The position numbers and the translations under genes are program-made. Below are positions 6,001 to 59,960 of a stretch of DNA of 64,000 nucleotides, piece by piece; positions within the stretch are counted from its first letter, which is position 1, and the number at the start of each line of letters is the position of its first letter. This DNA comes from Candidatus Obscuribacterales bacterium (GTDB taxonomy: Bacteria; Cyanobacteriota; Vampirovibrionia; Obscuribacterales; Obscuribacteraceae): positions 1 through 64,000 of the forward strand of contig JAGVKB010000086.1 in the NCBI GenBank assembly GCA_020050835.1, given 5' to 3'. The notes beneath the pieces were generated by a model that worked only from the letters and a program-made list of their open reading frames with translations, did not search any database and was not told where the DNA came from.

Positions 6001-9000
6001 GCTGACAGACAGGGTAGCTGTGCTGTCATCGTTTGTGCCGATCAAGAGCGGGGTTGTAATGACCAGATTGGCAGTTCCAGTACCACCTGCGTTACTGATT
6101 GTTTGACTCAAGCTGTTGCCCAAAGTTATCTGGGTGGCGCTTGAAATCCACACATTATGAGTATCTCCCGGATCGATAACTCCACCGATGCCGGCAAACG
6201 TGAATGCGCCTAACCCATTAATTATGATTGTGGTTTCTTCTGTGGGCTCCAGACTGGAAATGGTGCCATTGTTTGTCAATATGCTTCCATCCGGAATGTC
6301 AAAGTGGAGCACTCTTGCTGAGCTTAAGGTTACATTGCTGTCGATCGTTATGTTTGGAATATCTTCTGCAAATTGAATGGAATCGGCATCAAGGAAGATT
6401 GTCGTGGACGGGGTGTCCGGGTTTAGAGTGTTGTTGATTGAGAAATTGAGATTTTGCGCGGCAACTCCGATTGTCATGTAACCAGCCGAAATGGCTAGGC
6501 TTGCGAGTCCCGGGTCAGAGTCTGTTCCAACGCCATAAACTATCGGAGTGGCAACGTTGAGATTGCCGGAAGTTACTGTTTGCGACATGAGGTGCGCAAG
6601 CGTTACGCTGTCGGGTGCATTTACTAGCACAGTGTTGCTGGTTCCAACTCCTGCACCTTGTGCAGACCACTCACCAACGCCTGCCCAGACCATGCTGCCT
6701 GGAGTATTGACTGTAATAGAGTCTATGCCGGATGGAGCTCCGGTGTACTCAACTCTTCCGTTGTTAGTCAAAGTAGAACCGTCAGTCAAGTTCATCGTGA
6801 TCAAGTTGTCACTAGAGACTACGTACAGGGGATCTATGGTGATTCCATTGCCAGACATGTTGACTGGAGCTCCGTTGAGTGTCAGATAAGGGTCAACGAA
6901 GACCATAAACGCAATAACGATGCCACCATCATCATCTCCTCCTCCTCCCAGTTCAGCCGGTCCTATATGCAAGAGTCCAGACGAGCTTATGTTGAAGGAA
7001 CCACCATCGGCCACCACAGTTGGCGGTGAAACCGTCTGTGTATTTGGTGCTATGGTGATTCCGCCGAACGGAGATCTGATATCGAAATTGCCACTACCAA
7101 ATGTTGAATAAGCAATGTTCTCTTCCAGAACCAGGATATTGTCGCCTGAGCCGGTGACTTGTACCACGGTGGTGCCTGGCGTAGAATTCGTTTGTACGAA
7201 AGACCCTGTGCCCCTAAGCTCAAGTCCGTTGCCTGGAGTCTGAATGACAATGGAGTCATCTGTGGCACCGCTGCTGATAGTTCCATAATGAGCGAACGAT
7301 CCTTCATCCGCAAGCGTGATAATTATTTGTCCTGAGGATTGGAGCGTCACTCCTGCGTTTACTCTAAAGCTCTCATCATTTTGATTGAAAACTGACGTTG
7401 GGTTGTTGTTAACTTCACTGGCATTGATAGTGATGTTGGTAGTGCTTCCACCGGAGCCAACCGATAGCTCCAAGTTTCCGCCCGAACTACCACTGTTCAG
7501 TTGCGCCGTGCCGTTGGCAACTGTGATAACGGCGGTGCTATCATCGCTAGTTCCGATCAGGAAAGGAGTTAGTATTGCCAGATTGGCTATATCGACTCCA
7601 CCATTCGTGGAGATCGTCTGGCTGAGCTGGTTGCCGAGTGTAATCGAGTCCAAGGCGCTGAATTGCACTGTATTGGACGCACCCGGGTCGAATAGTCCAC
7701 TCTGACCGGCTAAAGTCCATTGGCCGAAATTGTCTACCAGAATTGTCGTATCGAACGAATTGGTTCCTGTATAGACAATCGACCCGTTGTTCGTTAAGGT
7801 TCCACCCGATCCCGGTTGGAAGGTCATATAGTTATCTGCCGATAGCCGATTGGTTCCCGCAATCGTAATGTCAGAGGCGCTTGCATATAATGGCGCTCCA
7901 GTGAACGTTAAATAGCGATTCGCAAAACTACCGACGGTAATTGACGTATCAGCTGTGAGGTAGATCGTTCCCCCAGATGCAACTATTGAGGGAGTGTCAG
8001 CAGTTTGACCTTGCAGGAATAGGTAGTAACCTCGGAAGACGGTATCCCCACCACCAAGCATTTCGTAGGACATGCCATTTTCAAACCTGAAAGTACCGCC
8101 ATTTGTCATTTCGAACACTGTGGTGCCGGCATTTTCTTGATTGAATGAACCGTTTCCTGCCAGCCTTAGTATGCCAGTGTTTGCTTGTATTACTATTGAT
8201 TCAGAATATTCAGTCGTCCTGATTTCTCCTGAATTAGTCAAGAGAGCTGTGGTCGACGGAGTACTAAGATTGAAGTCGAATTTGATTTGATGATCGCTGG
8301 CGAGAGTAACGCTGGAATCAACGGTGGCATCGGCATTGTTAATTGTAACTGTGACGTTGCCGCCATTTAGATTGATAGCGTTAGCCGAGCCTTCGAAGGT
8401 GATGTCCTCAGCTGGTGCGATAGTAAACTGGGGCGCGTTTAACGTGACGTCAGTGCTTGGCGGAGCAACGATCGAGAGATTTCCGGTGTCATTGCCGATG
8501 CGCAAGGGGCCGGTGCTTGTGTAGCTGGTTCCATCCGCAAATTCGATCGAACCGGCCATATCGATTAATTGGAAGACCGTTTCGCCGTCGTTGACCTGGG
8601 TGAAAGTGCCGCTACCAGCCATGGTGAGCAAACCAGTGTTGCTTTGAACTACGATGACCGACGAGCCGGTAGCGGTGCTTTGTACAAACCCATCAAAATC
8701 GAACACTCCACCATTTGCATTGAAGGTTATCGTGTTATCAGACTCGACATGATCTGTCGCACCGATTTCGATGCCTTCTGCGGCTGTCATTATTACGGGG
8801 GCACCGTTGAGCACTAGATAGTTCCCCGTTGGACCGCCGCCACCGCCAGCTCCGATGTAGAGTTCACCTGGAGTGTCGACTCTTATTGCAGTACCGTTGG
8901 TCGCGGTAATAGCTGCCGGTGTTTCGTTCTCAGGTATATTGAGGTTCAAGTCTCCAGTGAGAGCTCGTATACGAGTAGTGCCAGTGCCATCGACAGTATA

Positions 9001-12000
9001 GGAGACATTGTTCTCCAGTTGAATCGTGGCTTCGGTTGTCACTTGGAAGACCGTATCGCCACCGTTTACCTGTGTAAATTGGCCAACACCGGCAAGATTC
9101 ATTTGATCGCCGGTTGTTTGGACTACTATTGACTCACCGGTGCCGCTTGCCTGGATGTTTCCGTTGTTTTCGAAAGTCGAGCCATCGGTCAAATCTATTA
9201 CTACTCGGTCTCCGACTGTAATTGACCCGGTGGATTGTACGCCAATGCTAGTAGTCCCTCCGTTGTGGAGGAAAATGGTTCCGGTAGCATCACTTGCTCT
9301 CAAGGCTCCAACTACGAATACAGAGTTGGTTGTTGCCGTCAAGCTGAGCATATAACCGGAGGCATTGGGATCAGACGCGGTGGCATCCAGAGCTCCTAGA
9401 TTTAGCGCTCCTGTAGCAGTGCTGATTGTAGCTGTGCCGACAGATCCAGTGACAACAGCATCAATCGATGCCGCTGCTATCTGAATATCTTCCGAGCCGC
9501 CGTGCAGGGCTAAGTTGCCCAATCCGGCGTTTGCGCTCCAGGTTGCTCCTGCCGATGTGAAGGCGCCTGGATTGTCAGTATTTATACTGATATCGTCCGA
9601 TGTGGACGTCATTGTTCCGGTGCTCGTTAGCAACGGTGTATTCAAAGTGATCGTTCCGCCGGTGACGTTGGCGACAATGATGTCATCACCCGATCCAGTT
9701 CCGCTTGTCAGAATTACGTCTCCACCGGTATCAGATGAACTTGCTACTGTGCTGCTGACATTGCTGGAGCCAATATTCACGTCTCCTGTAGTAGAAGTGA
9801 GCTGAATCTTGCCTCCATCGCCTCCACCTGCTCCGCCGTTGGCTTCGACGCCTCCAACAATTACTACGTCATTTGTAGCTTGAACCTTGATTTCAGCACC
9901 GTTACCGTCTCCATTTAATGCTGATGCGGTTATGCCTGGAAGACTCGTAGAACCGATCGTGGCGGTTTCACCCGAGATGACGGTGACTTTACCTGCGTTA
10001 CCGCCGTCCCAGCCACCTTGACTGTTAATAGTTGTAGCGATGTTGATGTCTTCTCCGGCTTGCAGATCTACCTCACCGCCGTTTCCAATTCCTGATAGCG
10101 GTCCTGTTGGTCCACCGGTCGTAACTCCCCAAGCTGAGCTACCTACTTGTTGTATGTCGATGCTGCCTGGCACGTGCACTGTAATCTTGCCGCCGCCACC
10201 AGATTCAATGCCCCCCCAGGTGGAGATACCGGCGTCGCTGGCACTGAAGATTACGAGTTTGCCGACCAGCCCTTCATTGATTATCGAAACTTCACCGCCT
10301 GTGCCGCTTCCGGCTCCTACCGCAGCTATGCTGCCATTCAGCAAGGTATCGTCACCGATAGTCACAGCGTCGCCTGCGGTGATGTGCACGAAACCAGCAT
10401 TTCCGTTAGGACCGGCTGTTGCTGGGACAAATGCGGATGAGGAGATCGAGGTGACTGTGATCGGTCCGAATTCGGCAGTAAGCGTGATGTCGCCGCCATC
10501 ACCGGAGAGATTTGTTGTGGCGCTGCCACCGGTTGCATCGACAGTGGTAGCAGTGATACCGTCCGGCGCGATAACGGAGATGTTTCCGCTTCCATCTCCA
10601 AACAGTGAGCGTGAATCCAAATTGCTCAACTGAGCCGAACCAAATGTAGTCTCAGCGTAGATAATACCTCCTATTCCACCCTCTGGTCCGCCCGTGGATA
10701 GCAGGCTGCCTATACTAAGTCCGGAATTTGCATCAAGTGTTATGCCGCCACCATTGCCATTGCGCAGTGCGCGAGTGTCAATTGCGCCGGTAAAGGTAAC
10801 TGTGTCGCCCGTACTAGTCGCAGACACTGCACCACCATTGCCATCGAAGCTGTTGTATGTAGCGCTGAAATAGCCGGTTTGGGAGATTATCGTAGAACCT
10901 GTGACTGCGCCGCCGGCAAGCAGAGTCACTGCGCCTGCATTGTTACCCGGACCTTGCGTGCCGTAAGAAGAGGTATTGATAGCGTTTGTCACGTTGAGTG
11001 TCGAGCCGGCCGTTATGTTGACGGATGAGCCGGTGACGCTGGTTGCGTTCAGTACGCAGCAGCAGCCGTTGCAGAAATCGAATCCTCCGGCAACACCATT
11101 AACTTCTTGAATATTGACCGCGTTTCCCGATGTAATGTTTATACCGGAAAGACTCGAGATCGTGTCAGCAATCGTGCCTGCATTTCCTTGTGACCATACA
11201 CTATTGGTTACCCTATCCAGGACTATGTCATCTGTTGTGTCGGTTCCTGTGCTGATTAATGTAATAGCACCGCTGTTGCCTGAGTTATTTGCTTTGGCTG
11301 ATACTTCACCGTTATATATATGAATGCCATTTACCGCCTCGACATGGATGAATCCAGCGTCGGCCGGTCCAAATTGACCGTTGGACGAGCTATCGATACC
11401 TCCGTCAATGCTGATAAAGCAGTCACTGCAGGGTCCGCCATCGCCAGTAGTAATTATGACATTGCCTCCGCCGTTGCCTCCGCTTGAACCTACGTGGCCG
11501 CAACAGGGGAAGTCTCCGGTCAGTCCGGTTGAAATTGCGCCGTTGTCAGTGTGAAGTGTGACATTGTTACCTGTGCCAGTGCTAGACGCGGTGCTTTCAA
11601 TCCAGTTGCGAACGGAAATTCCGCTTACTGCATCAATACTAATTTCTCCTGATGTTCCGCTGTTGTTACCGACTGGCACCCGTCCGAATGCATGTGATTG
11701 AACAGCACCTGTACTGGTATAGGAAGAATCAGTAGTAATCATTATGTCTCCACCGTCGCCAGTGCTGTTACCACCATTAGCGTCAATTCCGGCTGTCGTA
11801 ATGTCGCCGGGAGCGTTCAGTGTGACATTGCCGGAGCTGCCCACCGAACTTGCCGAAAAGTCGCTGGAAGCGGAGGCTCTGATTGTGTCTGTGTCAATGG
11901 TTCCTGTGATTGCAGTTATCGCAATATCTCCGCCGTCGCCACCAGATCCACCGCCGGTGGCTCCGAAGAATATCCGACGATTCGCAGCAGCGCTTGGCGT

Positions 12001-15000
12001 ACCAACCGAGTCGCCCACAGTGACTGAAATGTCGCCGCCGTTGCCGGCATTTGGTGCAAGTCCGTTTCTAGCGGATGATTCAATTGGTCCATAGCCAAGC
12101 AACGAGCCGTTTGTCGAATCGATGGTGATATCGCCACCGTCTCCACCGGCATAGCCGCCAAATGCGGCTAGGAATCCGAAATGCGAATCTAATCCGGTTG
12201 GCACACCAAGTGTAATATCATCAGCTGCATCAAGTGTAATCGCGCCCGCATTACCTATTTTGGTGACCGGATCATCAATCAAGTAGGCAGCGGAGGTGCG
12301 AATCCAGTTAAGGACAGTAAGTCCTCCATTCTCTGATGAGAGCAAGACGTCGCCGGCGTCGCCTAAGGTTGTTCCGCCTTGAGTATCAAGCCGGGTAACT
12401 GATACACCATCGTTGCCCTGAAGTGTTATCTTGCCTCCCTCGCCAATACCTCCGCGAGCATAAGCGGCGATAGAAGTAGAAAGCAAATTGACGGTGTCAT
12501 CAGTGAATTCAACAACACCAGCGGTAGAGGTTGCCGTTACATCTCCACCGTTACCTCCTGTGTAGCCGCCATTGGCCTTTATGTCGTAGCCGGTAATATC
12601 GTCGAGCGCTTGCAGTGCAATTGAGCCAGCATCGTTGCCGAGCCACTGACTCGAATTGGAAGATGAGTCCGGAGGATTTGCAGAGTCGCCGAATATGATG
12701 CCGCCAGATACTGAAGTAATTGAGATGTTTCCGCCGTTACCGCTGCCACCGTTCGATCCTCCGATTGCTTGTACGATTGGTGCGTTAAGGGTAGAGTCGC
12801 TGGAAATCGTGATCGAACCGGCGTTGTTTCCAGCTCCCTGATAGCCGTATGAGCTGCTTATGACGGAAAGAACATCGATGCCCGCAGTTTGCGATATCAA
12901 TGTAATGTCACCACCGCTGCCTGTCAGGCAGCAAGTGTAAGCGCCGCGTGCCCAGACATTGCCTACTGTGAGTGAGCCTCCGGCTGTGATTGAGATATCT
13001 CCTGCGTCATTCCGCCTTCCGCTGGACCCGTAAGCGGTCGTATCTATGTCATTTGAATTGGTCGTGACGTTTCCAGCTGCCTCAACTCTGATATTGCCAC
13101 CGGCTCCGGAGTTGAATGTGTCAGCGCTGGCAGAAGAAGTGAGCGAATTGGTAGTAACATTTCCCGCTGACGAGATATTCATTCCAAGTGCTCCGGCCAA
13201 CCCGTCAAAAATCGCTCCGGCATTTCCTGCATCGTAAACTCGATTAGATATTGTTCCGGTCAAGATGTCACCAGGAGTGTCATATGTAAGAAGAGTTATT
13301 GAAGCACCATTACCGGTATAGGCGTCGGCGTTGATGTCTCCGGTGGTGATGCCCGTAGCGGCACCAATGTTGATCACTCCGGCATTTCCCTGTCCGTAGG
13401 CTGAGGAGTTAACAGGGCCGTCTACTACAACAGATCCACCGGCGCCTAAAACGATCGAATGTCCACCGTAATTCGAGTTGCCGTTCGCAGTCAGAGCTCC
13501 AACCGTAATATCATTAACTGCGAGAATGGTAATAGAACCTGCATCGGACTGGTCAGTACTGAAATCCAAGGTCGAAGTAGTGATAGGATTGCTGCCACCA
13601 ATGCAGGAGCCGCAAGAAATGATGCTGACGCCACCACCTTGTGGATAACCGACGGTATAGATAGGTCCCGTGAATGTTATGTCGCCTGTGCCCGGTTGGG
13701 TATTGAGCGATACTGCGCCACCAAAACCGTCATTGCTAGAGGTATCTATCGTGCCATCGACAAGAATGTTGCCACCGGAACTCAATACTGTAAACGATCC
13801 GCCATTGCCGCCGGAGCCCAGTCCTGTCAAAGTTACGTCCTGGAACGAAGCACCACCTCGCAACGTATATATGAATACAGACCCAGCATCTGCCGCACCG
13901 CCTTCGGAATCTCCTGTAGTGCTAATATCTCCCACGAAATTCAGACCCGGTGTTTCTGTACCCTCAGCATAGAGGTTACTGCCATTGGTTGTAAGTCCAC
14001 TAATGGTGGTGATGCCGCTGTCTCGATTCGAAATTACTAGATATCCGCTGGAGTTTGTGATATTTAGCTGATTTCCCACTACTTGCGAATCAAAGCCGCC
14101 TGTGCTCAGGATGATTACAGCATTGCCGGCTGAACTGCCTGGAATGAGCTCCTGTTGAGCGCCTCCATGGTAATAGACGAGCACCCCGTGTGAATCAGTA
14201 AATGTACTGAGGGCTGGGCTCCCACCAATTGAAAGGGTGCCAAGGTCGTTTGAGTTGCTATAAATAAGTGCGTTGTTGCCATTCGGGTAGGATACGTTCA
14301 TTCCAGCTCCGGCTAGCGTGCTTCCTTGTCCAAAGACGATTGAACCGCTTGTCGCCGTTAAATTGAGATTACCACCAGGATCACTGGTACCTATCGTGCC
14401 ATCACCAACAGTGATAATGCTGCCGCCGGAAATCGTCAGGTCGTGGCCTTGGTTGTCAGTATTGCCAACCTTGATTGTGCTGGGATCACCGTTGCAGTTT
14501 CCGACATTTGTAACAACTATTGCTCCATCGTTACTGTCTGACAGTGTGAGATTGCCGTTCTGAGCTACGATGAAACCACCGAGATTAGAAACTCCAATTC
14601 CACCGCCGGTAGTGCTAACCGTCAATGAAGTTCCGGCAATGATACCCAATCCCGGTGCATCATTGCCGGAATTAGCAAGCCCTGCTCCTGAACCAGACAG
14701 CAAAATGGCTCCATTGACTGATGTAACTAAACCTCCAACGTTGCTCAATGCTACTGACGAGTCGTTGCCTGTGATGGTTAGGTTGTTAGTGGCCGACATT
14801 GTTCCACCCAAGTTGCTGACTGCAGTGCTGCCGAAGGGGCTATCATTTTGAATGATTATGTTCGTAGCCGAGATATCGCTGGAATTACTCGTCACATTGA
14901 GGTGCATAGATGCGGTATCCAGCGGTCGCGATACGGTGAAATCGCCGCCGGCCGTAACTGTTGAGTCAATGATAAACAGATTGGAACTGTTGAAGAGTAT

Positions 15001-18000
15001 GTCGTCAGTGACAGTGACATCACCGCGCACAATAGTTGCACCGCCTGCGGCCTGAGTGTCATCGGCTCGCAGCTCGTTGCCGCTCGTAACATTGCCGGAG
15101 CCGACCTCGAAATTGATTGCACTACCATCGCTGCTCGTTACTTGGGCGTTGTGTACTTCAAGCCCTCCTGGGACAGCTGTCGCGCTTGGACCGCCGACGT
15201 TATACATTGTTATCGCAATTGCATCCCTGCCACCGGCGACTAAAGTGGTGTTACCTGCCACACTGTCTCCATCATTGTCTAGGATGAGCGAGTCTGGCAA
15301 GCTGAGTGTGCCCGTGTTCAAACCGTTGACGTAGGCAGCCAGATAGTTGTTGCCACCGTCGCATCCACTACACGTAGAGGCATTGCTGAAAGTTACGCTC
15401 ATCGGCTTGGAGAGGTTAATTGACCCTCCTGAATTAGGTCCATCAACATTCACCGAAAGATAGTCAGACAACAGATATAGATTTGCTCCGGCAACAAGAT
15501 TGATGTCTCTACCTTGAGTTCCGGCATGCGAATCGAAGACCACCGTGCCTGGAGCATTGAAGGTGAGATCGGTTCCAGCGAGTATTGCTAATGTAGAGTT
15601 ACCTTCCGAGTTGATTCTCAAGGAATCAGCTGCCGATATAGTAATGTTGCTCTGACCAGCTATCACTCCGTGAAGATTCAGGGTACTTTCGTCGGAACCG
15701 TCAAATTGAACAGAGATATTACCTAAACCTCCGGAATATGGGTTCAATGCAATTGCCAGTACCGGACCAAGTGAGATCGATGAGGGAGCTGCGATAAAAA
15801 CATTACCGGATGAGGAATTGTCGCTCGATGTAATAAGCGCAGAGTCGAGTGTGATACTTCCCTCGGTGGAGATAAGTGACACATCGCCACCGAAGCCAAA
15901 GTTTCCGACTGTAGATATTGAGTAATCATACAAAAAGTTACTGTTCGAATGAACCAAGATATCACCTACCGACGATAGGGTTACAGTGCTTCCGCCGCCT
16001 GATGAACCTGCCCATATGCTATCTGCTGTGATCTTGCCGCCAGATAACATATTGACTCCTGTGAGTCCGCCAACGGTGTCCCTGAAAGCTCCGGCAGTGT
16101 CGCCGCTGTTGACGATTGCGAACACATTGCCCACCTGTATGTCACTAGCGCCAGTGGTAAGGAGGGTAATTGCACCGCTACTTCCACCGTTGTAGCTGTA
16201 CGAACTGGTATCAAGCCTATCCAAAGTTATGCCGTTGCGAGCGGAGATGTGTAAGAAGCCGCCGTAACCATAAGATCCGGAATTACTACTCGCGTCGATT
16301 TCCCCGTTTGTCTGCGAGACAGCTCCAGTGAGCGACCTCATGATGACATTGCCACCGTTACCATAGTCAGCATTCGCGAAGGCTCCGAGAGTGTAGATAG
16401 AGCCATCTAATGCTATGTTGCCTACAGCATCCAATATTACATTTCCGCCGTTTGCACCGCTTCCAGTATTGGCATAAGAGCTGGCGTCTAAGTCTCCGGT
16501 GACTGAAATTGTCGAACCGGCAGTCATGCGGATGTCACCACCGGCGCCGCTACCACTTGCGAATGAACCACCGGGGATGTAGATATCATTTGTTTGAATC
16601 GTGCCAGCAGCAACCAGGTTTACTCCAGTAAGTCCTGTAAGAGCATCCGTTGCGAAACCGGCATTTCCGTCATATAGGACCGGAGAATAGAGACTTCCGT
16701 TGATACTCACATTTGCATAGTAGTGATCCGTGTTTGCATTGGTAAGCAGCCCAATTGCACCGCTATGTGAGCTGCTGTCAATGCCATTGGCAGAAGTGTC
16801 GATACTCCAGACGTCAACACCGCTACCTCCGTATATGTGCACGAAACCAGCATCACCCGTTAGTCCCATTGATGACGTGTTGATATCTCCAAAGGAGGAA
16901 TTGTTGTTAAATGCAAAACTAATTACATTTCCACCACGACCGCTACCTGACCCTAACCCACTGTCGTTTTGACTTGTTGCTGCGATAGAGCCTACAAATG
17001 AAAAGCCACCGGAAACCAAGTACACATTGCCTGCATCATTACCTGTGCCATTGGTTCCATAGGCGGATGTATCAATATTAGCGATCCACAAATTACGGTC
17101 GAAACCTAATCCCGGGGCCAATAGCCGAACGTTTCCACCATGCGAACCATCGCCGTTTGCGTATGTGGTAATCGCGTAGCCATGCATGTCAATGTCATCT
17201 ATGCCGTACAGGAGTACATCACCGCCGCTATCTCCGGAAAGTGAGGTCGTGTCTACAGACCCATTGAAGTTGAGTCCGTCAGCCGCATCGACATACAAGC
17301 TCGACCCGTTGGTGATTACTCCATTGAATCCAGAAATGCCACTGCTTTTTCGAATGCTGATAATGGTTTCGCCGTTAAATTCTGGCAACGAGATGCTGCC
17401 GCTACCATCGCTGATTGGGTCGAAGCTGGCACTGCTCAGAACAATAGCGCCATTTCCATTGAGTACTTGCGAATTTCCGCTGGTACTAGCGAAATAGACC
17501 CACTGGGAATTCGGATCTTCCATTACTTCGATAGTTTGCCCAGAAGCTACATATAAAGGTAGAGTTTCCTGATTTAGTTGGTATGCGAGGAAATTCTCTG
17601 TAAAGCTGACATTCAGCAGTCCACCAGTAGTCAGCGCTTCTTGAGACAGTACGATAGAGCTACCGCTCACTGAAATGTCACCGGAATTGTCGACGTTAGG
17701 TCCAAACTGCCCTGCACCAGTGACGAATACATTGCCAGTTGCTGACAGTGTTACATTGCCAGTTTCCTGTACGCCAATGAAGCCGTCCGAACAGCAATCG
17801 CCGTTATTCAATATATAGATGCCGCCCTGACTAGCCAGCATGTTAAGGTTGCCGTCGATGGTACCCAGCGTGGATCGAAGATTGGTTACGTTAATGTCTC
17901 CTCCGGCGTTTATCATGCTCAGGTTGGCATCGGACAAAATAGTGCTTGCATTGCCACCATCATTTTGAATATTGAAGACCGATGTTGAGCCACCAGCATT

Positions 18001-21000
18001 CAGCAGTTGAATGTTGCCTCGGATGTCTTCATCAGTATAAAGGCGTGCACCTTGCACTGTGAGGTTCAATGCGCCGGCGCCTACTAGAGAAATGCTATTT
18101 CTAGCTTCGATTTCAAATGAATCATCAAAGTATGGATTTGTCACCACCACGTTCGCGCTATTGAAAAATATGTTGCCGTTGTTGCTTCTGAGGCTCTTAT
18201 CAGTAAAGTTCTGACTGCTATTCGAAACGATGGTCGAGCCCGAGTTTTCAGACGTAGCAAGTGTAATGTTGCGATCCGTTCTGATTCCCATGGTCGAAAT
18301 CAAATTGGGAGAATACAAGTAGACCGAGCTACCTCCGCAGCAGTCATTAACTATCTCGCCGCTCATTTTCAGTCCGGTGCTGTTGGTGTTTTGAATAATT
18401 ACATTTCCACTCGTGTAGATGTTACCGATGCTCGCAACATTTGGATCGTTTAACACTGCAATAATCACGCTCGAGCCGTCGCTACTGACTTCTTGCAATA
18501 CGCCAAGCGAATTCAACTGTGGATTTGGACAACAACCATCAGCTAGCACGATAACGCCGTTATTGCTTGGAAACCATGCTGAACCTGAGTAGTACACCTG
18601 GTGTCCGTCGTTATCATAGAAGTAGTTGTACGGAGTTCCACTTCCTTGCGGGTTAGGGTCACTTCCATCCATGCTGTACATCAACATCATGCTAGGGAAA
18701 TCAACATTTACTCCAGAGCCGTCAGTCAGTATATGTCCCTGCGTTAGAACAATTGATCCGCTGACAGAAGTTATGTTGATGCTTCCATCAAGGGAGCCGA
18801 CAGTGCCATTGCCCATAACCACAACGTCCCGGTATGCGTATAAATTTAGATTGCCGCAACATCCTACTGGTCCAATGACGGCATCATTGCCTTGACCATC
18901 ACTATTGTTGAAAATGAAGTTGTTGCTGCCGAAGCCGTTGATGTTGACATATGCACCGGTGATGGTACCTCCGAGATTTGTTACGTTAAGTTCGCCACTA
19001 AAGTTATTGATACTAACTGAGCTGGCTGCTGAAAGCTCTGCCAGGTGTCCGGTGCCATTACTTACATTGTTTATGACTAATCCGCTTCCTTCATTGCTTA
19101 TATCCAGAGTCCCGCCGGCGGTGATGCTGCTGCCGGCGTTGTTGATTGTGAGCAATCCAGGTCCGTGATTGTTTATCCGAATATCTCCGCAGCATCCGCT
19201 CACTGTGCTGTCTATGAAGGAAACGGTTGTATTGTTTCGATTGCTTGTAAGATTTCCCACACTATTGCTGATATGAAGGTCATAGATGTAGTTAACGGTG
19301 CTGTCAGTGACCATCAATTCGTTGGACAGCAAACTTACTTCTTCACCAGTAACATTACTTGCTTGCTGAATGAGAATTAGACCGTTTGTATTATCCAAAG
19401 TGACGTTGGAAGTGCCGCCGATCGTTCCTTGACCGGTTAGGACAATATTTCCGCCACCGTTTGAAATGTTTAAATCGCCACCGCTATTTGTCCCGAATGA
19501 TGAACTTGCATCAACCGCATTGACGATGACGTTGCCGCCACCATTGTACACTTGAACTGTCCCAGCGCCCGTTTGAACCTGGCTACCATCATACAAACCG
19601 ATAGCAATTCCACCGGAGCCGACGAAGTTGATGTCCCGATCGTCGTTGGCGTTTATCGAACTTCCATTGGTCGCGGCTATTTGAGAGGTCTGGAATAGTA
19701 TTCCGGTATTCGATGCGACCGTTCCGGAGATAGTAGTTGCTCCGGTTGCCGTCGAGATAGTGATGTGCTGGTCTGCCGAAATGTTTTGAGTCGAGATACT
19801 GTCAGTGGAATAGAGAAGTGCACGGCCACCATCGCCGGAGTTTGTAGTATCAATAGTGCCCTGAAGATTCAGCCCAGCGCTGTTGGTGCTATCCATGTAA
19901 AGATTGCCGCCTGAAGTTGAAAGTCCACTGACAGCAAGAATGCTCGGGTCGTTTCTGACTGAAACGATTGTGTTTCCAGAGAAGCTCGGCAGGGTTAAGA
20001 CTCCTGCATCAACATACGCTCCTCCGCCGAAGTCTTGTGTACTTAATACTAGGGCGCCATCGCCGTTTACCACTTGGTTGTACGGGCTGGCGTAATACGC
20101 ATTTATGCCGTCCGCATCTTGAAATGATGAGACTGAAGTGCCATTGATGTTCAGCGAATCTCCATTCAGGCTGTACATTAAGAGCATGCTGTCGAAACTT
20201 CCCAGGCCCACATTTATCTGCGAACCGTTAAGAATCTCTTGTTGCGCCATGACGATAGAGCCGGTTGCACTCGCAAGATTTACTGCCGATGAATCGGAAC
20301 CAGCTAGGCCGTTTCCATATATAAAGATGTCGTCTGCTGCTGTGATATTGAATGTACCAGTACCCTGGGCTCCCAAGGTTGCCTGATTGCCATAGCCATC
20401 TTTGTTGTTGAAGGCAAACAAGCTCGAGTTGGACGAGATGGAGAAGTCTCCGGAACTTGCAGCGGTAGTGCCTATCTGCCCGCCCATGTTGGTAATGGAT
20501 GGAGTACCGCCGGCAGTAAATGAGAACGAACCATTAGCCAGCAACTTTCCTGTATTGGCATGTCCGCTGCTCAGGTTGTATACAGTTGCATCATTCGCTG
20601 CTGCGATCGTTATGTTTCCGCTGGCGAGTATGTCAGTTCCCACATTGTATAGAGTGAAAGCTCCTGTTCCGGCACTCGTAACGGTCAAGTCATTCGTTTT
20701 GATTTGCTTATTGGTCTCAAAAGTTAGTGAGTTTGTGAAAAGTTGGACATCAGCTGTCGGCATATTGGTGGTGTCTAAACCGCCCATAAAGATCTGCCTT
20801 GGTGCAAGCAATACAAAATCTTGATCCAGATTCAGCTGATAGATGTTGGACAACTTTGCGGTTCCTGTGAAGTTGCTTGAGTCATCGCTGCGATACTGAA
20901 CGAAGAATGGAACCAGCAGGTTGTTGAAATCGGGCTGCGGTGATGTAGACAGATTTGCCGCTAGTACCATCTCATTTTGAAGGCTGATGTTACGGAAGCC

Positions 21001-24000
21001 GCCTCCAGGTAGCTGTTCGGGTGAAATCCATCCACCTGCGCCGACCCAACTCCAGTCTGCTCCGACGGGCCAATATTGGCTGCCCGGATGCTGGATGTCG
21101 GCTGCAGAGTTATCCAGAACCTCAATCAGAGACGCACCAGGACTAGGAGTCTGGGAGGTAAATAGGGGATCGTTATTGAACTGAGGAGCACATGAGCCAC
21201 ATGATGCACCTGCCAGCGTAAGGAGAACAATGCCACCGTTTGCCTCTGAATTCCCGGCTACCGTTATGTAGTTTGCCATCAGTTCCGTCGCAGAACTGCC
21301 GTACACTCCACCACCGCGAACCGCCGCCGAGGTGTCGATATCATTGAGATAAACTCCATCCGTACCCACGACTGCGACCCGACCGCCGGCATCACCACCA
21401 GTAGGTCCCCCTCCTGTGGTGATGGTTCCAGTTACTGAAACGATGCCCGGAGCTACTAGCATTGCGTCTCCACCTCTAGCTGATCCGGCTGCAGCGGAGT
21501 TTGTTATGGAGCCGAACACATCCAGATTCGCATTGGCGAACAGGGTAACGTTGCCTCCATTTTGGAGCGGAGCCGCTGTGTTAATGTTGCCAATTATGTT
21601 GATGGCCTTGTCCGCTACGAGCGTCAGGTTGCTGCCAGCTGACATTCCACTTAAGTTATTGGCGGCGACAGTGACGCTGCCAGCAATCACAGTTCCTACA
21701 CCTACCGAAGAAGCAATTGCCGCAAAATTGCCGCCGTCGCTACCGGAAACTTGCGGTCCAAAGTTTGCCGAGCCGGAGCCGGATACGAAAAATGGAGCCA
21801 AGAGATTGGCAAAGCTAAGACCATTTGAATTGCTGGTCAGGCGAATGGGAGAGGATAAATCGATGTCCAGGAACCCTCCGCCCGGCAGCATGTCCGGAGA
21901 GATATTGCCGCCTGGGGGAGTTTGTAACTCAGTCCAATTGCTGGACAAGACATTTCCGTTGCCGTATTGGGTTAGAGCATCAAAGGCTGAGGTCCCGGAA
22001 TTGAGAGTGTAGTTCATAGCGTAGGAATCGCCGGATTGGGATGCGTTTGTTAAGAGGACAGCGCCGTTCTGTCCGCCGCCCACGTCGATTCCGGAGATAT
22101 TGATGTCGCCCAGAGCGCTTACGTAAACCGAACCAGCTGCCGACGATCCTGCCGTGCTTATGTCACTGGAGGTCACTCCGCCGACGCCAATTAATGCCAC
22201 ACGACCGCCGAAATCTCCCCCGCCGGTTTCAATTCCCCCGGTCGAGTTGACCGATCCACCGGCGGCCAACATTACGTCTCCGCCGCGTGCGGTGCCACTT
22301 GTGGTTATCGTGCCCGTGCTGACGTTGTTCGTTGCGGAGATAAGACTTACTAGCCCACCGTTGTCGTCGGTGCTCGAAGTTTCTACGTCATTCAAGGTCA
22401 CAGCTTGAGCAGCGTTGAGATTGACTGCTCCACTATTACCTACCGTCGAACTGGTATCGACATTTCCATCGAGAGTAATTCCAGCTCCGGAAAATACTGT
22501 GACAGAACGACCTTCGCCTTTGATGTTGCTACTCAAGTACACATTGCCTTGAGCATTGATGTTCAGGTTGGTGTTCAAGAAGATATTACTGCCGGCTGTT
22601 AAGCCGTCGTGGTCGTAAGAGCCGCCATTGGTAACACTGCCAGTCATCGAGTAAGCTACTCCGCCACCTGAGCCATCAACCACAGCAGGTTGTGCGGCGA
22701 TGAGATTGACATCGCCACCGCCACCGGAGTTGCCCGCGAGGCGAGTCGTAATCGTAAAGTTGCCGTGCGAGTCACCAGACTCTCCCAGATAAATCGGGCC
22801 GTTGCCGGACATGTCAGTGGCCGCGCCGGCGATCATTGTGACTGCGCCGTTCTGTCCGGTACCTTGACCATAACTAGCAATACTCGTGATAGAAGGTAGT
22901 TTTATAGTTCCACCACTACCAAATCCGTCGGAAAATGCGATGAGACTAATGTCACCACCAGCTGTATCTGGGGAAGTGGCATTAGTTCGAATAGCCAGAC
23001 TGGTAGCTGCGGAAAGGTCGATGTCTCCGCCTGAGCCCGGGCCTACTACGGTAACAAGGTCATCAGCCTCCGCACCTCCTGGCGGGATGGGACCAACTGA
23101 GTTCGTGGGTGACGTAGCAGAAGTGCTCAAACTAGCCCCAGCCACCAATGTGAGATGGTGACCGGTGCCATCGTCATTGGTAGAGATGGTCAGGGGTGCG
23201 CCTGCTGCAGCCGAGATGTTTCCGGTAGCCAAAATTGTCAGATCTTCTCCAACAGTGATCGGTCCGGTGAGCTCGATTGAGCCGGCGTCGTTGTAGTAGG
23301 TTGGGTCGCCGACGACTGTGACTGTGCCAATCACCAATTTGCCGGTGGATACTCCGACATGCACCTGGTCAGCCAGTGTGCTCATCACACCTGTAACTGT
23401 TCCAAGTTTGCCGTTTATATTGCCGAGTCCAGAGTACAAATTGAGTTCTCTGGAGAGAAAATCACCACCATAGACGTTGAGATTGGCCAATGCTGAGAAT
23501 GATTGATCTCGAATGTTTATAGAGCCTGCTAAAGCCTGTAAGGTCCCATTTACGTTGTTGACCAGTATGTCGTGGACTCCTTGGGTCGAGAAGTTTATGT
23601 TGCCGGTGTTCGACGCTATGAGACCTGCATTTGTGAAACTGCCGATGGCCGACATGAGATTCACATTGCCAACCGCCTGCATTATCGGACTCGGTCCAGC
23701 AACTCCGGCCGGCAATGCGTTGACGATCGAACCACCAGCGGTAAGACTCAAACTGCCGGCACTTTGAATAAGCCCCGCGTTGAAGATGTTGTTGAGCGCC
23801 ACAACGTTTAGTCCGAGGTTCGCGATAGGGTTCGTTATGCCGGCTAAACCACCGGCTGGAAGCAGGGTTGATAAAATGCCGGTCTGCAGGTTGCTTACGT
23901 TAGTGGCGCTAAGTGTTGCGCTGGTATGGTCCTGGTTGAGGGACGTTAGAACGAAATTGCCGGCATTTGTCAGAGTGCCGGCAATGTTCAAGTTTGAGCT

Positions 24001-24504
24001 GTCAGTTAACTTACCAATTGCGGTCACACCTTCCGGGACCACCAGATTGGTCAGACGCTGACTTAGTTGAGAACCTATCGTCAAACTTCCACCTACTGCA
24101 TTTCCTTGTGCGCCGAGTAAGATCGACTGCTCTCCTGTTCTTAACACCTGATAAACAGCTACTTTTTCGGCTGCTGTCAGCATACTTGCCGACGTGATTA
24201 CTTGGCTGGTTCCGCCGACGTTGATAGTTACCGAACCGGATTGAATGGCGTGGGCTGCGTTCAGGTTCTGGGTGGTTGAACTGAGATCCAGGTCAATTGG
24301 GCTGTGTGTATGTACCTGCGAGGCAGCGGCAGCAGCAGCAGTTGCCGCATCGGCTACTGCCTGGCTGGCAGCATTGGCAGTAACATCCGTGGTCGGTGCG
24401 ACAGTTGAGGTTTCAGCAATTGGGTCCGCGAGGGCAGCGATATTGGTCCAACCGAAGACCAAAATCATCAGGAGGGCCAAAACTCGTCGATGCAACCACG
24501 TCAT
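1..24504 (-). CDS. Giant secreted beta-repeat (adhesin / filamentous-haemagglutinin-like) protein, partial
   Basis: One reading frame runs from an ATG at 24504 to the left edge, at least 8,168 codons, and continues outside the window. I checked the first 1.7 kb row by row and about forty rows spread over the rest. I found no stop, and the same frame gives the same style of protein at both ends. Residues 1-26 form a signal peptide (MTWLHRR, then a hydrophobic core, cleavage near ALA-DP). An Ala-rich stretch follows (about 45-60), then thousands of residues of Gly/Asn/Ser/Thr-rich short strands of the type NAGNFVLTS or GGTFRNNGSV, as in beta-solenoid adhesins and autotransporter-associated repeats. 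No clear TPS-domain motif is seen at the N-terminus. Any autotransporter barrel or sorting domain would lie beyond the edge. The SD is weak (GGGGG about 6 nt before ATG). The role as a surface or matrix protein is inferred from composition only; a polymorphic outer-membrane protein is an alternative. Confidence 0.85.
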   Translation of the reverse strand, partial: MTWLHRRVLALLMILVFGWTNIAALADPIAETSTVAPTTDVTANAASQAVADAATAAAAAASQVHTHSPIDLDLSSTTQNLNAAHAIQSGSVTINVGGTSQVITSASMLTAAEKVAVYQVLRTGEQSILLGAQGNAVGGSLTIGSQLSQRLTNLVVPEGVTAIGKLTDSSNLNIAGTLTNAGNFVLTSLNQDHTSATLSATNVSNLQTGILSTLLPAGGLAGITNPIANLGLNVVALNNIFNAGLIQSAGSLSLTAGGSIVNALPAGVAGPSPIMQAVGNVNLMSAIGSFTNAGLIASNTGNINFSTQGVHDILVNNVNGTLQALAGSINIRDQSFSALANLNVYGGDFLSRELNLYSGLGNINGKLGTVTGVMSTLADQVHVGVSTGKLVIGTVTVVGDPTYYNDAGSIELTGPITVGEDLTILATGNISAAAGAPLTISTNDDGTGHHLTLVAGASLSTSATSPTNSVGPIPPGGAEADDLVTVVGPGSGGDIDLSAATSLAIRTNATSPDTAGGDISLIAFSDGFGSGGTIKLPSITSIASYGQGTGQNGAVTMIAGAATDMSGNGPIYLGESGDSHGNFTITTRLAGNSGGGGDVNLIAAQPAVVDGSGGGVAYSMTGSVTNGGSYDHDGLTAGSNIFLNTNLNINAQGNVYLSSNIKGEGRSVTVFSGAGITLDGNVDTSSTVGNSGAVNLNAAQAVTLNDVETSSTDDNGGLVSLISATNNVSTGTITTSGTARGGDVMLAAGGSVNSTGGIETGGGDFGGRVALIGVGGVTSSDISTAGSSAAGSVYVSALGDINISGIDVGGGQNGAVLLTNASQSGDSYAMNYTLNSGTSAFDALTQYGNGNVLSSNWTELQTPPGGNISPDMLPGGGFLDIDLSSPIRLTSNSNGLSFANLLAPFFVSGSGSANFGPQVSGSDGGNFAAIASSVGVGTVIAGSVTVAANNLSGMSAGSNLTLVADKAINIIGNINTAAPLQNGGNVTLFANANLDVFGSITNSAAAGSARGGDAMLVAPGIVSVTGTITTGGGPTGGDAGGRVAVVGTDGVYLNDIDTSAAVRGGGVYGSSATELMANYITVAGNSEANGGIVLLTLAGASCGSCAPQFNNDPLFTSQTPSPGASLIEVLDNSAADIQHPGSQYWPVGADWSWVGAGGWISPEQLPGGGFRNISLQNEMVLAANLSTSPQPDFNNLLVPFFVQYRSDDSSNFTGTAKLSNIYQLNLDQDFVLLAPRQIFMGGLDTTNMPTADVQLFTNSLTFETNKQIKTNDLTVTSAGTGAFTLYNVGTDILASGNITIAAANDATVYNLSSGHANTGKLLANGSFSFTAGGTPSITNMGGQIGTTAASSGDFSISSNSSLFAFNNKDGYGNQATLGAQGTGTFNITAADDIFIYGNGLAGSDSSAVNLASATGSIVMAQQEILNGSQINVGLGSFDSMLLMYSLNGDSLNINGTSVSSFQDADGINAYYASPYNQVVNGDGALVLSTQDFGGGAYVDAGVLTLPSFSGNTIVSVRNDPSILAVSGLSTSGGNLYMDSTNSAGLNLQGTIDTTNSGDGGRALLYSTDSISTQNISADQHITISTATGATTISGTVASNTGILFQTSQIAATNGSSINANDDRDINFVGSGGIAIGLYDGSQVQTGAGTVQVYNGGGNVIVNAVDASSSFGTNSGGDLNISNGGGNIVLTGQGTIGGTSNVTLDNTNGLILIQQASNVTGEEVSLLSNELMVTDSTVNYIYDLHISNSVGNLTSNRNNTTVSFIDSTVSGCCGDIRINNHGPGLLTINNAGSSITAGGTLDISNEGSGLVINNVSNGTGHLAELSAASSVSINNFSGELNVTNLGGTITGAYVNINGFGSNNFIFNNSDGQGNDAVIGPVGCCGNLNLYAYRDVVVMGNGTVGSLDGSINITSVSGSIVLTQGHILTDGSGVNVDFPSMMLMYSMDGSDPNPQGSGTPYNYFYDNDGHQVYYSGSAWFPSNNGVIVLADGCCPNPQLNSLGVLQEVSSDGSSVIIAVLNDPNVASIGNIYTSGNVIIQNTNSTGLKMSGEIVNDCCGGSSVYLYSPNLISTMGIRTDRNITLATSENSGSTIVSNSSQNFTDKSLRSNNGNIFFNSANVVVTNPYFDDSFEIEARNSISLVGAGALNLTVQGARLYTDEDIRGNIQLLNAGGSTSVFNIQNDGGNASTILSDANLSMINAGGDINVTNLRSTLGTIDGNLNMLASQGGIYILNNGDCCSDGFIGVQETGNVTLSATGNVFVTGAGQFGPNVDNSGDISVSGSSIVLSQEALTTGGLLNVSFTENFLAYQLNQETLPLYVASGQTIEVMEDPNSQWVYFASTSGNSQVLNGNGAIVLSSASFDPISDGSGSISLPEFNGETIISIRKSSGISGFNGVITNGSSLYVDAADGLNFNGSVDTTSLSGDSGGDVLLYGIDDIDMHGYAITTYANGDGSHGGNVRLLAPGLGFDRNLWIANIDTSAYGTNGTGNDAGNVYLVSGGFSFVGSIAATSQNDSGLGSGSGRGGNVISFAFNNNSSFGDINTSSMGLTGDAGFVHIYGGSGVDVWSIDTSANGIDSSSHSGAIGLLTNANTDHYYANVSINGSLYSPVLYDGNAGFATDALTGLTGVNLVAAGTIQTNDIYIPGGSFASGSGAGGDIRMTAGSTISVTGDLDASSYANTGSGANGGNVILDAVGNIALDGSIYTLGAFANADYGNGGNVIMRSLTGAVSQTNGEIDASSNSGSYGYGGFLHISARNGITLDRLDTSSYSYNGGSSGAITLLTTGASDIQVGNVFAIVNSGDTAGAFRDTVGGLTGVNMLSGGKITADSIWAGSSGGGSTVTLSSVGDILVHSNSNFLYDYSISTVGNFGFGGDVSLISTEGSITLDSALITSSDNSSSGNVFIAAPSSISLGPVLAIALNPYSGGLGNISVQFDGSDESTLNLHGVIAGQSNITISAADSLRINSEGNSTLAILAGTDLTFNAPGTVVFDSHAGTQGRDINLVAGANLYLLSDYLSVNVDGPNSGGSINLSKPMSVTFSNASTCSGCDGGNNYLAAYVNGLNTGTLSLPDSLILDNDGDSVAGNTTLVAGGRDAIAITMYNVGGPSATAVPGGLEVHNAQVTSSDGSAINFEVGSGNVTSGNELRADDTQAAGGATIVRGDVTVTDDILFNSSNLFIIDSTVTAGGDFTVSRPLDTASMHLNVTSNSSDISATNIIIQNDSPFGSTAVSNLGGTMSATNNLTITGNDSSVALSNVGGLVTSVNGAILLSGSGAGLANSGNDAPGLGIIAGTSLTVSTTGGGIGVSNLGGFIVAQNGNLTLSDSNDGAIVVTNVGNCNGDPSTIKVGNTDNQGHDLTISGGSIITVGDGTIGTSDPGGNLNLTATSGSIVFGQGSTLAGAGMNVSYPNGNNALIYSNSNDLGTLSIGGSPALSTFTDSHGVLVYYHGGAQQELIPGSSAGNAVIILSTGGFDSQVVGNQLNITNSSGYLVISNRDSGITTISGLTTNGSNLYAEGTETPGLNFVGDISTTGDSEGGAADAGSVFIYTLRGGASFQDVTLTGLGSGGNGGSFTVLSSGGNILVDGTIDTSSNDGFGGAVSLNTQPGTGDITFTGPIYTVGYPQGGGVSIISCGSCIGGSNPITTSTLDFSTDQSDAGSITILAVNDITVGALTANGNSNYGGHSIVLGAGGSVVVDGPVNSSAYGQGNAGVINIGAATGITTGDINADAYTGNGASITLLTYDTPGDILTGTISNRVYDAGNAGAIFDGLAGALGMNISSAGNVTTNSLTSSASADTFNSGAGGNIRVEAAGNVTTNSNDIDTTAYGSSGRRNDAGDISITAGGSLTVGNVWARGAYTCCLTGSGGDITLISQTAGIDVLSVISSSYGYQGAGNNAGSITISSDSTLNAPIVQAIGGSNGGSGNGGNISITSVSGGIIFGDSANPPDSSSNSSQWLGNDAGSIALQALDDITGYDIKANGGYTGGNGGDVTATSTAGVVEFTDDTVNLLSTSIAAYARGGIGEGGKITLQGNDGVSVTRLDTQGGTTLGDAGDVLLSSENGGLTVLNWIRTSAAYLIDDPVTKIGNAGAITLDAADDITLGVPTGLDSHFGFLAAFGGYAGGDGGDITIDSTNGSLLGYGPIESSARNGLAPNAGNGGDISVTVGDSVGTPSAAANRRIFFGATGGGSGGDGGDIAITAITGTIDTDTIRASASSDFSASSVGSSGNVTLNAPGDITTAGIDANGGNSTGDGGDIMITTDSSYTSTGAVQSHAFGRVPVGNNSGTSGEISIDAVSGISVRNWIESTASSTGTGNNVTLHTDNGAISTGLTGDFPCCGHVGSSGGNGGGNVIITTGDGGPCSDCFISIDGGIDSSSNGQFGPADAGFIHVEAVNGIHIYNGEVSAKANNSGNSGAITLISTGTDTTDDIVLDRVTNSVWSQGNAGTIADTISSLSGINITSGNAVNIQEVNGVAGGFDFCNGCCCVLNATSVTGSSVNITAGSTLNVTNAINTSSYGTQGPGNNAGAVTLLAGGAVTGSTIISQTGYFSATYNSFDGNGGAVSATSTGDTVTFTGAIDTRALRNGNGGGITLDANSGLSIGSLLSTGGPEGGIGGIIYAETTFGSAQLSNLDSRSLFGDGSGNISVIAPDGITATTVDATGGSATTNLSGDGGDITLTAEFGPITVTSISSSAFVPATAGPNGNAGFVHITAGDAVTIGDDTLLNGSIAAVGAGSGTGGEVSIINEGLVGKLVIFSASDAGISTWGGIESGGGGKITVHVPGSIDIQQVGSSAWGVTTGGPTGPLSGIGNGGEVDLQAGEDINIATTINSQGGWDGGNAGKVTVISGETATIGSTSLPGITASALNGDGNGAEIKVQATNDVVIVGGVEANGGAGGGDGGKIQLTSTTGDVNIGSSNVSSTVASSSDTGGDVILTSGTGSGDDIIVANVTGGTITLNTPLLTSTGTMTSTSDDISINTDNPGAFTSAGATWSANAGLGNLALHGGSEDIQIAAASIDAVVTGSVGTATISTATGALNLGALDATASDPNASGYMLSLTATTNSVFVVGALRASDATGTIFLHNGGTTSIGVQSTGSITVGDRVVIDLTDGSTFENNGNIQASGTGESIVVQTTGDQMNLAGVGQFTQVNGGDTVFQVTTEATIQLENNVSYTVDGTGTTRIRALTGDLNLNIPENETPAAITATNGTAIRVDTPGELYIGAGGGGGPTGNYLVLNGAPVIMTAAEGIEIGATDHVESDNTITFNANGGVFDFDGFVQSTATGSSVIVVQSNTGLLTMAGSGTFTQVNDGETVFQLIDMAGSIEFADGTSYTSTGPLRIGNDTGNLSIVAPPSTDVTLNAPQFTIAPAEDITFEGSANAINLNGGNVTVTINNADATVDSSVTLASDHQIKFDFNLSTPSTTALLTNSGEIRTTEYSESIVIQANTGILRLAGNGSFNQENAGTTVFEMTNGGTFRFENGMSYEMLGGGDTVFRGYYLFLQGQTADTPSIVASGGTIYLTADTSITVGSFANRYLTFTGAPLYASASDITIAGTNRLSADNYMTFQPGSGGTLTNNGSIVYTGTNSFDTTILVDNFGQWTLAGQSGLFDPGASNTVQFSALDSITLGNQLSQTISTNGGVDIANLAILTPFLIGTSDDSTAVITVANGTAQLNSGSSGGNLELSVGSGGSTTNITINASEVNNNPTSVFNQNDESFRVNAGVTLQSSGQIIITLADEGSFAHYGTISSGATDDSIVIQTPGNGLELRGTGSFVQTNSTPGTTVVQVTGSGDNILVLEENIAYSTFGSGNFDIRSPFGGITIAPNTQTVSPPTVVADGGSFNISSSGLLHIGPAELGGGGDDDGGIVIAFMVFVDPYLTLNGAPVNMSGNGITIDPLYVVSSDNLITMNLTDGSTLTNNGRVEYTGAPSGIDSITVNTPGSMVWAGVGEWSAQGAGVGTSNTVLVNAPDSVTLAHLMSQTVTSGNLNVATPIVYGVGTDSDPGLASLAISAGYMTIGVAAQNLNFSINNTLNPDTPSTTIFLDADSIQFAEDIPNITIDSNVTLSSARVLHFDIPDGSILTNNGTISSLEPTEETTIIINGLGAFTFAGIGGVIDPGDTHNVWISSATQITLGNSLSQTISNAGGTGTANLVITTPLLIGTNDDSTATLSVSNGSAILNSGTSSGNVEVALGTGGAGTATTISIEASSLTNSPFPATNDADLGFAINSGVTLQTSGLVSLHLGDAGTFDNAGKLKSTATPGSATTEVLVEAGGELNLLGTGSIEVGNANAATVFAASTSINFADNSNLHIDGGGTVGLQTPVVNVGVTGDTGTAGAVSGGLTASSLISLQPGVDTTGALEFATTSLAGISSGQINFNGGSVKISADEEVSVALATTLSAQGPSNGTFDVDPIDVINNGTITSNMPIFITVDGGTITNNGLIQSTATGPATTITVTGNTSMTVAGTDGNLDPGTGKAVLFTAADSITLDAGMTQDLNSGKLLITTPLLQGNGGTSTFSSTAGTGYFLSNPGGLLEIGSTSGSSTLEFNGAPVSTMSTTPSIAQPDNIQVNADTLLSTDDTMTLSTTNNGSIVGPGTVAALVLHLSSDFGGTPGAGTGSIGLANAALGTTTGTLTANTQGNVYITNTGILSLGASTGANFQLNNSTDLTVTGEVSATAALTLNAQGNIVVGGNLNADTGNLVLVARDDISSSDAVDLNGAAVTIVAGANFSVSASDSSLTITGGSTSGGSIDFAAQPINSLTATGLTYSPYAIPMTLAAFGGTAATSGTVSLPGPGSGVTADGNYGVTILAGGRTSPTAGSNAISLGDVYSELGSIFIRTTQPTLIGGNLVLLDGLPTSPGYINFDVASTLTNTAAATGNIETGTGEGGVFVSAGNNLFVDGSITTTGLQIDIAANSLGGATSFKINSSETVNGITGDVTSGGSPGSGSGISINVQNAHLTISNTVSTTGPGLTLRASDVTIDSTAVITDGYTWILLSKPTGTVTNNSTITANLNATFNPLFPKIVISGQAVTLAGTGTMVVRSSEFIEVSGSTSVTLDAALSQTFDGDSLLIRTPLLQGNGGTSTFNTTTGSRYILSRSGSGTFEIGTSSGSSTLAFNGAQVVTTYSGTPSVAVPSNLQIDLDTTLSSDNTINLTIGNNGTVTNNGTITSTASGPDTSINISASGAGVITLAGTTGSLDPGAGNAVQISGSTVTLDSGLAQTLSSGSLILLATTILQGNGGTSTFSATSGTSYILANPGETLVIGSSTGSSILSFNGAPVVTTSATPFVAAPANVQINTGTTLSSDNSITFTLDTDGTFIHNGTISSSATGDSIVIQTSSNGMMLEGTGAFAQTNAGSTVVQFTGTGDNLLVLEDGISYTTTGGGDFDIRSPLGGLTIAPNTPIVTPPTIIADGGTFNISSSGLLHIGPGELGGGIIIFMDPFLTLNGAPVVMSGNGITIDPLYVVSSDNLITMNLTDGSTLTNNGRVEYTGAPSGIDSITINTPGSMIWAGIGEWSAQGAGAGAANTVKINAPDSVTLADGMIQTITSGNLNIGTPIIYGVGTDSDPGVASLSITAGTMTIGVANENLNFSINNDLNPDTPATTMFLDANSIQFASGIPNITIDSNVTLSSSRVFHFDIPDASTLTNNGTIASTEAVEETTIIANGLGQLTIAGTGGVFDPGDGHTVLISTDTQLRLGNNLSQTVSNTGGTGAANLVIATPLLIGTNDDSTATIAVTNGSAILNSGTSGGSLEIAMGTGGSGTTTTIAINASSLSNSPYPSTNTNDLSFQLNSGVTLRTSGSISLELADDGVFNNSGTVASDLVPGSPATVISIESDGALNLVGDGHIQVAGTDGNTLIAATTSISFADDSNLHIDGNGTVAIQTPIILVGVTGDTGTSGLVTGGLTASGDIFIQPGATTTGSIQFGTTTLPGVTNGKLNLDGGSLKVSATTAVTIDPATTVSAQGPASGTFDVDPVDFTNNGTLTSNMFISIDVNGGAFTNTGSISYTGTATSADTISVQSPNTLTWTGSGGSIDPGSTNSVVLTAPTSLSLADGLDQTIVAGGNLVLETSIVTGIQSGSSPGAAIITIANGTATVGDNSSLMEFAVSSGETIPETVITINSNALTFSPSVSTFQIDQGVTLNPSSVLTVNLPTGGTFRNNGSVASTASAA
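500..2560 (-). repeat. Internal duplication of the giant gene, copy 1
   Basis: This stretch is a diverged copy of the stretch 4,695 bp (1,565 codons) to its right. Anchors such as GGGTCGACATC (590 and 5285) and TGCAGACCACTCACC (1966 and 6661) sit at exactly the same offset, so there are no net indels between them. It encodes several consecutive beta-repeat blocks. Confidence 0.8.
2683..3290 (-). repeat. About 159-residue module repeated within the giant gene
   Basis: The block ending in the codons for a Gln-Gly-Asn-Gly-Gly turn (TTGCCCT on the plus strand at 2804 and 3281) recurs after 477 bp, which is 159 codons. A third related block lies near 4860-5000. It shows the size of one structural unit in this part of the protein. 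Confidence 0.6.
5195..7255 (-). repeat. Internal duplication of the giant gene, copy 2
   Basis: Partner of the copy at 500-2560, with the frame preserved and a constant offset of 4,695 bp. Third-position differences are plentiful, so the duplication is old compared with a recent slippage event. A shorter related block also occurs around 7400-7700. Confidence 0.8.
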
Positions 24505-59956: not shown

Positions 59957-59960
59957 TCCG

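Follow-up and report, generated by a model that had tools for sequence, protein, structure and literature searches.

A giant open reading frame with grouped cysteines

The window analysed here is a stretch of 64,000 nucleotides from a Candidatus Obscuribacterales bacterium (assembly GCA_020050835.1, contig JAGVKB010000086.1, positions 1 to 64,000 of the forward strand). It contains a giant open reading frame (ORF) of 8177 amino acids (aa), and we describe how the cysteines of the encoded protein are arranged and inherited and what they may do. The ORF has no stop codon and runs off the start of the contig (C90 in our numbering), its N-terminus resembles a signal peptide by eye, and the protein is rich in Gly, Ser, Thr and Asn. 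Very long exported proteins usually avoid cysteine. Counted over the full translation, the giant ORF has 27 (0.33%), and 26 of these sit in twelve tight groups (seven CC, four CxxC and one CxxCCC). Cysteines no more than three residues apart were observed 14 times; in 20,000 random placements the mean was 0.26 and the highest count 4. A preliminary description of this DNA had named the twelve sites; all of them are present and the effect is stronger than was claimed, whereas the residue numbers given there were 5 to 10 too low.

All cysteines fall between residues 1111 and 4492, with none in the 3685 residues that follow, and the flanks of the twelve groups are unlike one another. Since both cysteine codons are in use (19 TGC, 8 TGT), the pairs cannot be put down to one DNA word, and a DNA-level motif was rejected as their source. 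The features of the ORF are listed below by window coordinates.

1..24531, minus strand: giant ORF, 8177 aa
23182..24396, minus strand: conserved N-terminal region, residues 46-450; family-wide, seed of alignment A1, 42 and 45% identity to two relatives
21190..21201, minus strand: CxxC, residues 1111/1114
19189..19194, minus strand: CC, residues 1780/1781; coil in model
18856..18861, minus strand: CC, residues 1891/1892; coil in model
18529..18534, minus strand: CC, residues 2000/2001; coil in model
18337..18342, minus strand: CC, residues 2064/2065; coil in model
17791..17796, minus strand: CC, residues 2246/2247; coil, in a low-confidence part of the model
15361..15372, minus strand: CxxC, residues 3054/3057; common to paralogue L005
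14494..14496, minus strand: lone Cys 3346; aligns with the lone Cys of paralogue L005 and that of L043
13603..13614, minus strand: CxxC, residues 3640/3643; common to paralogue L005 and L043; coil in model
12928..12933, minus strand: CC, residues 3867/3868; coil in model
11500..11505, minus strand: CC, residues 4343/4344
11419..11430, minus strand: CxxC, residues 4368/4371; common to paralogue L005
11056..11073, minus strand: CxxCCC, residues 4487/4490/4491/4492

The preliminary description had also considered that the cysteines might take lipid. This finds no support: a lipobox cysteine sits at the mature N-terminus and all of the sites are internal, and lipidation was set aside.

The giant protein is predicted to be a beta-solenoid

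Two segments covering seven of the twelve groups were modelled with AlphaFold2 (380 aa, predicted local distance difference test (pLDDT) score 85.7; 551 aa, pLDDT 74.3). Both models are beta-solenoids. All 14 modelled cysteines (7 pairs) lie in coil, six pairs in blocks with a mean pLDDT of at least 71 and one (2246/2247) at 46. This agrees with the earlier proposal that the pairs stand at turns, weakly if taken alone, since coil makes up half or more of each model.

Foldseek by itself gave no match at E <=0.001, and the structural assignment comes from VIA-align re-scoring of Foldseek's list. For the first model, the HMW1 secretion domain (Z 26.8, root-mean-square deviation (rmsd) 3.8, 284 aligned) and EtpA (Z 26.7, rmsd 3.8, 283 aligned) were tied at the top, and other beta-solenoids scored high too, among them a curli subunit (24.4, rmsd 8.3) and an antifreeze protein (20.8). 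Since unrelated beta-solenoids exceed 20, the match indicates the fold and not the family. The best match of the second model was HxuA (Z 14.9, rmsd 3.3, 225 aligned), and the handedness of the beta-helix is taken from the matched structures. On the basis of these models we take the giant protein to fold as a beta-helix (solenoid), probably located on the cell surface.

In its predicted fold, its size, its composition rich in Gly, Ser, Thr and Asn and, judged by eye, a start that may be a signal peptide, the giant protein resembles the two-partner secretion (TPS) exoproteins (HMW1, EtpA, HxuA; FHA type). An N-terminal TPS domain was not matched by sequence in its first 510 residues, the N-terminus lying outside the models, and unlike TPS exoproteins it carries twelve cysteine groups along the solenoid. 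In HMW1 the disulfide described in PMC3983070 is a single C-terminal loop between Cys 1518 and 1528 that is required for tethering. The ShlB (TpsB) model had 0 matches in the window's own genome, and the control genomes were silent too; one POTRA_2 protein is encoded in the own genome, on contig C55 and not on the contig of the ORF.

Relatives of the giant protein

The N-terminal region is present in 35 of the 50 genomes of the window genome's family and has 38 matches in the own genome (G000); among the matches listed, family frames reach 14,495 aa. A phylum-wide draw of 386 genomes contained it once, in the own genome. Of the 18 named loci that match, 15 carry the label Candidatus Obscuribacterales, Cyanobacteria (SZAS LIN-3) or Melainabacteria; the other three are recorded as uncultured bacterium (two) and Chloroflexi (one). 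The last label may be wrong; this locus shows the match of a contig of G031, a genome placed in the window genome's family. Judged from these sequence matches, the giant protein belongs to an Obscuribacterales family.

The 510 N-terminal residues matched 0 Pfam families (E up to 10) and 0 NCBIfam families (E up to 1). For the N-terminal region together with a solenoid segment (residues 1740-2290), no Pfam (E 0.01 for the segment, 10 for the N-terminus), PHROG (0.1) or NCBIfam (1) family was matched, and our searches of open-licence PubMed Central turned up no report of paired cysteines in such giant proteins. A C-terminal region of up to ~500 aa is common in the own genome to L005:1401-2900 and 25 further matches; it shows a sub-threshold FecR match (E 0.051) and, in 8 of 10 rows, an aligned cysteine near a KMAAC-like end.

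Many cysteines of the relatives occur in pairs

We collected stop-to-stop frames of at least 500 aa from the fetched loci with G+S+T+N+A >=48% and K+R+H+E <=12%, leaving out duplicate loci and L011. This gave 103 relatives, or 83 after removal of overlaps, which were picked by length and score and not randomly and include 11 proteins of the own genome, compared to its 38 N-terminal matches. The frames begin at a stop codon, so some of the cysteines counted precede the true start. In 296,928 aa the 83 relatives contain 901 cysteines, 434 of them within three residues of another. Spacings of 1 to 6 residues occurred 96, 14, 114, 14, 10 and 2 times, compared to ~4 expected for each. The second inner residue of CxxC is Gly in 43 of 114 cases, compared to an overall Gly content of 16%, which would suit a tight turn. 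Among 31 control frames, which may include non-genes, 22 of 172 cysteines stood in close pairs.

The groups are also even in size. In the solenoid bodies (frames minus the first 300 and last 600 residues) we counted 220 single, 157 double, 0 triple and 6 quadruple groups, and over whole frames 467, 203, 0 and 7, respectively. For the own genome, the bodies hold 8 single, 40 double, 0 triple and 1 quadruple group, or 4, 42, 0 and 1 when CxxxC is included. This parity fits pairwise bonding. By genome, with 300 residues removed at either end, G008 has 130 of 162 body cysteines paired and the own genome 86 of 101.

These counts bear on the suggestion, made in the preliminary description, that the pairs bind metal (Zn, Cu or Fe), singly or as two pairs on neighbouring rungs. 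CxxC is a common spacing of metal ligands, and in the giant ORF the CC at 4343 and the CxxC at 4368 are 24-25 residues apart, near one rung. Successive groups 17-40 residues apart, however, were seen 13 times against 10.9 expected, no clear excess. Triple groups are absent, CC is almost as common as CxxC (96 vs 114) and half-pairs are avoided (see below). Haem or zinc sites, as in a c-type cytochrome or multihaem filament or a zinc knuckle or ribbon, found no support in motif or spacing: in the 83 relatives CxxC was followed by His in 0 of 122 cases and CPxCG, a zinc motif, occurred 0 times. Metal binding is thus weakened and we regard it as quite unlikely.

Pairs are inherited whole while sites turn over

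L005 (5050 aa) is the nearest paralogue. Its solenoid holds eight cysteine pairs (CxxC, CxC and CC), and it has one lone cysteine. Three of the 11 testable groups of the giant ORF are common to it (3054, 3640 and 4368), eight are wholly absent and no group is present by half; for group 1111 a reliable counterpart is lacking. Conversely, L005 pairs such as 807, 3037, 3075 and 3911 are wholly absent from the giant ORF. The 3640 pair also occurs in G031 (L043), together with a lone cysteine at the lone-Cys site. Non-conservation in homologues, which the preliminary description named as a refutation of its reading, is therefore what we found for most individual sites, while the pairing rule itself recurs.

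Across homologues at a local identity of 0.45-0.95, a pair was present in both sequences in 45 comparisons, in neither in 117 and half present in 2 (164 comparisons, 67 sites), compared to ~66 half-states expected under independence. One of the two half cases is a CC facing a CxxC, so that one kind of pair can give way to the other at a site, and the second case lies at an alignment gap. At 35-45% identity there were 34 both, 1662 neither and 27 half vs 92 expected. Half-states of control residues at 0.45-0.95 were close to expectation for most residues (seen/expected: P 202/213, D 354/336, M 348/359, F 265/304, K 78/85, R 84/77, E 62/62, H 50/56; W 0/0 of 8). The alignment used is A4, which replaced the too divergent A2 (11 rows).

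On a tree of 34 N-terminal regions, taken from frames of at least 1400 aa and excluding the giant ORF's own row, 6 changes in the presence of pairs are required, at least 4 going by well-supported branches. As read from the sequences, pairs would have come or gone several times, one gain plus several losses being possible.

Reactive or intermolecular thiols, with pairs cross-linking neighbouring filaments or serving as surface redox sites, could explain the position of the modelled pairs in coil between strands and the lone cysteine aligned in three homologues, and the own genome did not match the oxidase models searched. A cross-link, however, needs one cysteine per site and not two, and half-pairs are almost absent at the higher identities. 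We consider this explanation unlikely. The pairs could also be functionless, having multiplied as solenoid modules were duplicated and then been kept by descent. GCCDERS recurs four times in paralogue L068 (frame residues 1690, 1952, 2200 and 4081), and Tyr pairs show a milder co-inheritance. Set against this, the flanks in the giant ORF differ from group to group, and proteins from many genomes alike show parity and favour spacings 1 and 3, which leaves hardly any room for a functionless origin.

Disulfide catalysts

The own genome, a draft that is 95.7% complete, has no match to the VKOR, DsbB, DSBA or Thioredoxin_4 models; other oxidases were not searched, and the DSBA model was run on this genome only. 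Disulfide clips, if formed, may therefore close without those catalysts. Among the 50 family genomes VKOR was found in 15 (14 over the cut-off), Thioredoxin_4 in 12 (10 over the cut-off) and DsbB in 0. Genomes with pairs include VKOR-positive ones (G011, G028, G015 and G006) as well as five in which VKOR, DsbB and Thioredoxin_4 were all unmatched (G000, G008, G017, G021 and G031). A tie between pair-richness and disulfide catalysts was thus not seen.

Other genes in the window

A 2454 aa protein (40680-48044, minus strand) with DUF4011, AAA helicase domains, an MTES_1575 nuclease and DUF3320 looks, from its domains, like a defence-type helicase-nuclease and adjoins a phage-type integrase (39445-40659). 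Two AbiEii-type toxin genes lie at 34760-35737 and 59123-60806, the second next to a MarR/AbiEi-like regulator (AbiEi models below the cut-off). A MobA/VirD2-like relaxase (62334-63626) suggests that the window also contains mobile DNA.

A proposed role for the cysteine pairs

Our favoured explanation, with a probability of about 0.6, is that the cysteine pairs form local disulfide clips at the turns of a surface beta-helix. Each CC or CxxC would stand on a turn leaving the helix core and close into a single local disulfide, CC as an eight-membered vicinal ring and CxxC as a clip across a tight turn. Because the partners are neighbours, mispairing would hardly be possible. A chain thousands of residues long that left the cell unfolded would then need no isomerase to close the clips, and perhaps no Dsb or VKOR oxidase either. 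The likely effect would be to stiffen and protect exposed turns. Local disulfides were among the roles first proposed for the pairs, and parity and all-or-none inheritance argue for them indirectly; the bond itself, like export, oxidation and any benefit, we infer.

Vicinal disulfide proteins have adjacent cysteines in loops, as in the CC groups here, where the bond is putative. The giant protein differs from them in that a single chain combines seven CC with CxxC groups. According to PMC12102755, bonds between adjacent residues are rare; vicinal disulfides can lie on mobile loops, and ligand binding, structural stabilisation and switching are their reported roles. Vicinal disulfides might accordingly serve mainly as contacts for a ligand such as a sugar, giving adhesive sites spaced along the filament, and the turnover of sites with the kind of pair kept would suit this. 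CxxC is, however, as common as CC, and we know of no ligand-contact role for it, so that contacts of this kind appear very unlikely as the main function.

Several observations weigh against local disulfide clips. Coil makes up 56% and 50% of the two models, so that placement in coil is weak evidence by itself, and the unmatched oxidase models may also reflect an absence of any disulfides. Not all relatives follow the pairing rule (body cysteines paired in G025 0/14, in G040 0/6 and in G017 113/268), the 220 unpaired body cysteines include 134 from G017, and L078 has CPDC and CTDC in a poly-proline linker (frame residues ~5135-5151), outside solenoid turns. Most sites of the giant ORF are not common to its nearest paralogue, and individual sites turn over. 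The aligned lone cysteine is unpaired in three homologues; it stands at residue 3346 of the giant ORF, frame residue 2272 of L005 (stop-to-stop numbering) and frame residue 880 of L010/L043, in the contexts NCNGDPSTI, DCAGNPGTI and NDCVGNGAF. Pair comparisons between homologues are not independent, and half-states are also short of expectation for Tyr pairs (369 vs 618 at 0.45-0.95, 363 vs 604 at 35-45%) and for Pro at 35-45% (556 vs 723); relatedness and co-inheritance of modules therefore contribute to the deficit.

A wider and more doubtful proposal is that this is how the lineage makes use of disulfides outside the cell: its many giant surface solenoids would carry self-closing CC/CxxC clips that need no dedicated oxidase or isomerase, 'pairs or nothing' taking the place of Dsb-type proofreading. 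In conclusion, a family with cysteines largely as neighbour pairs, in genomes that the common catalyst models did not match, makes it testable whether local disulfides can form in the absence of the known catalysts. If the clips are real, the pairs would offer a plug-in means of stiffening the turns of a beta-helix.

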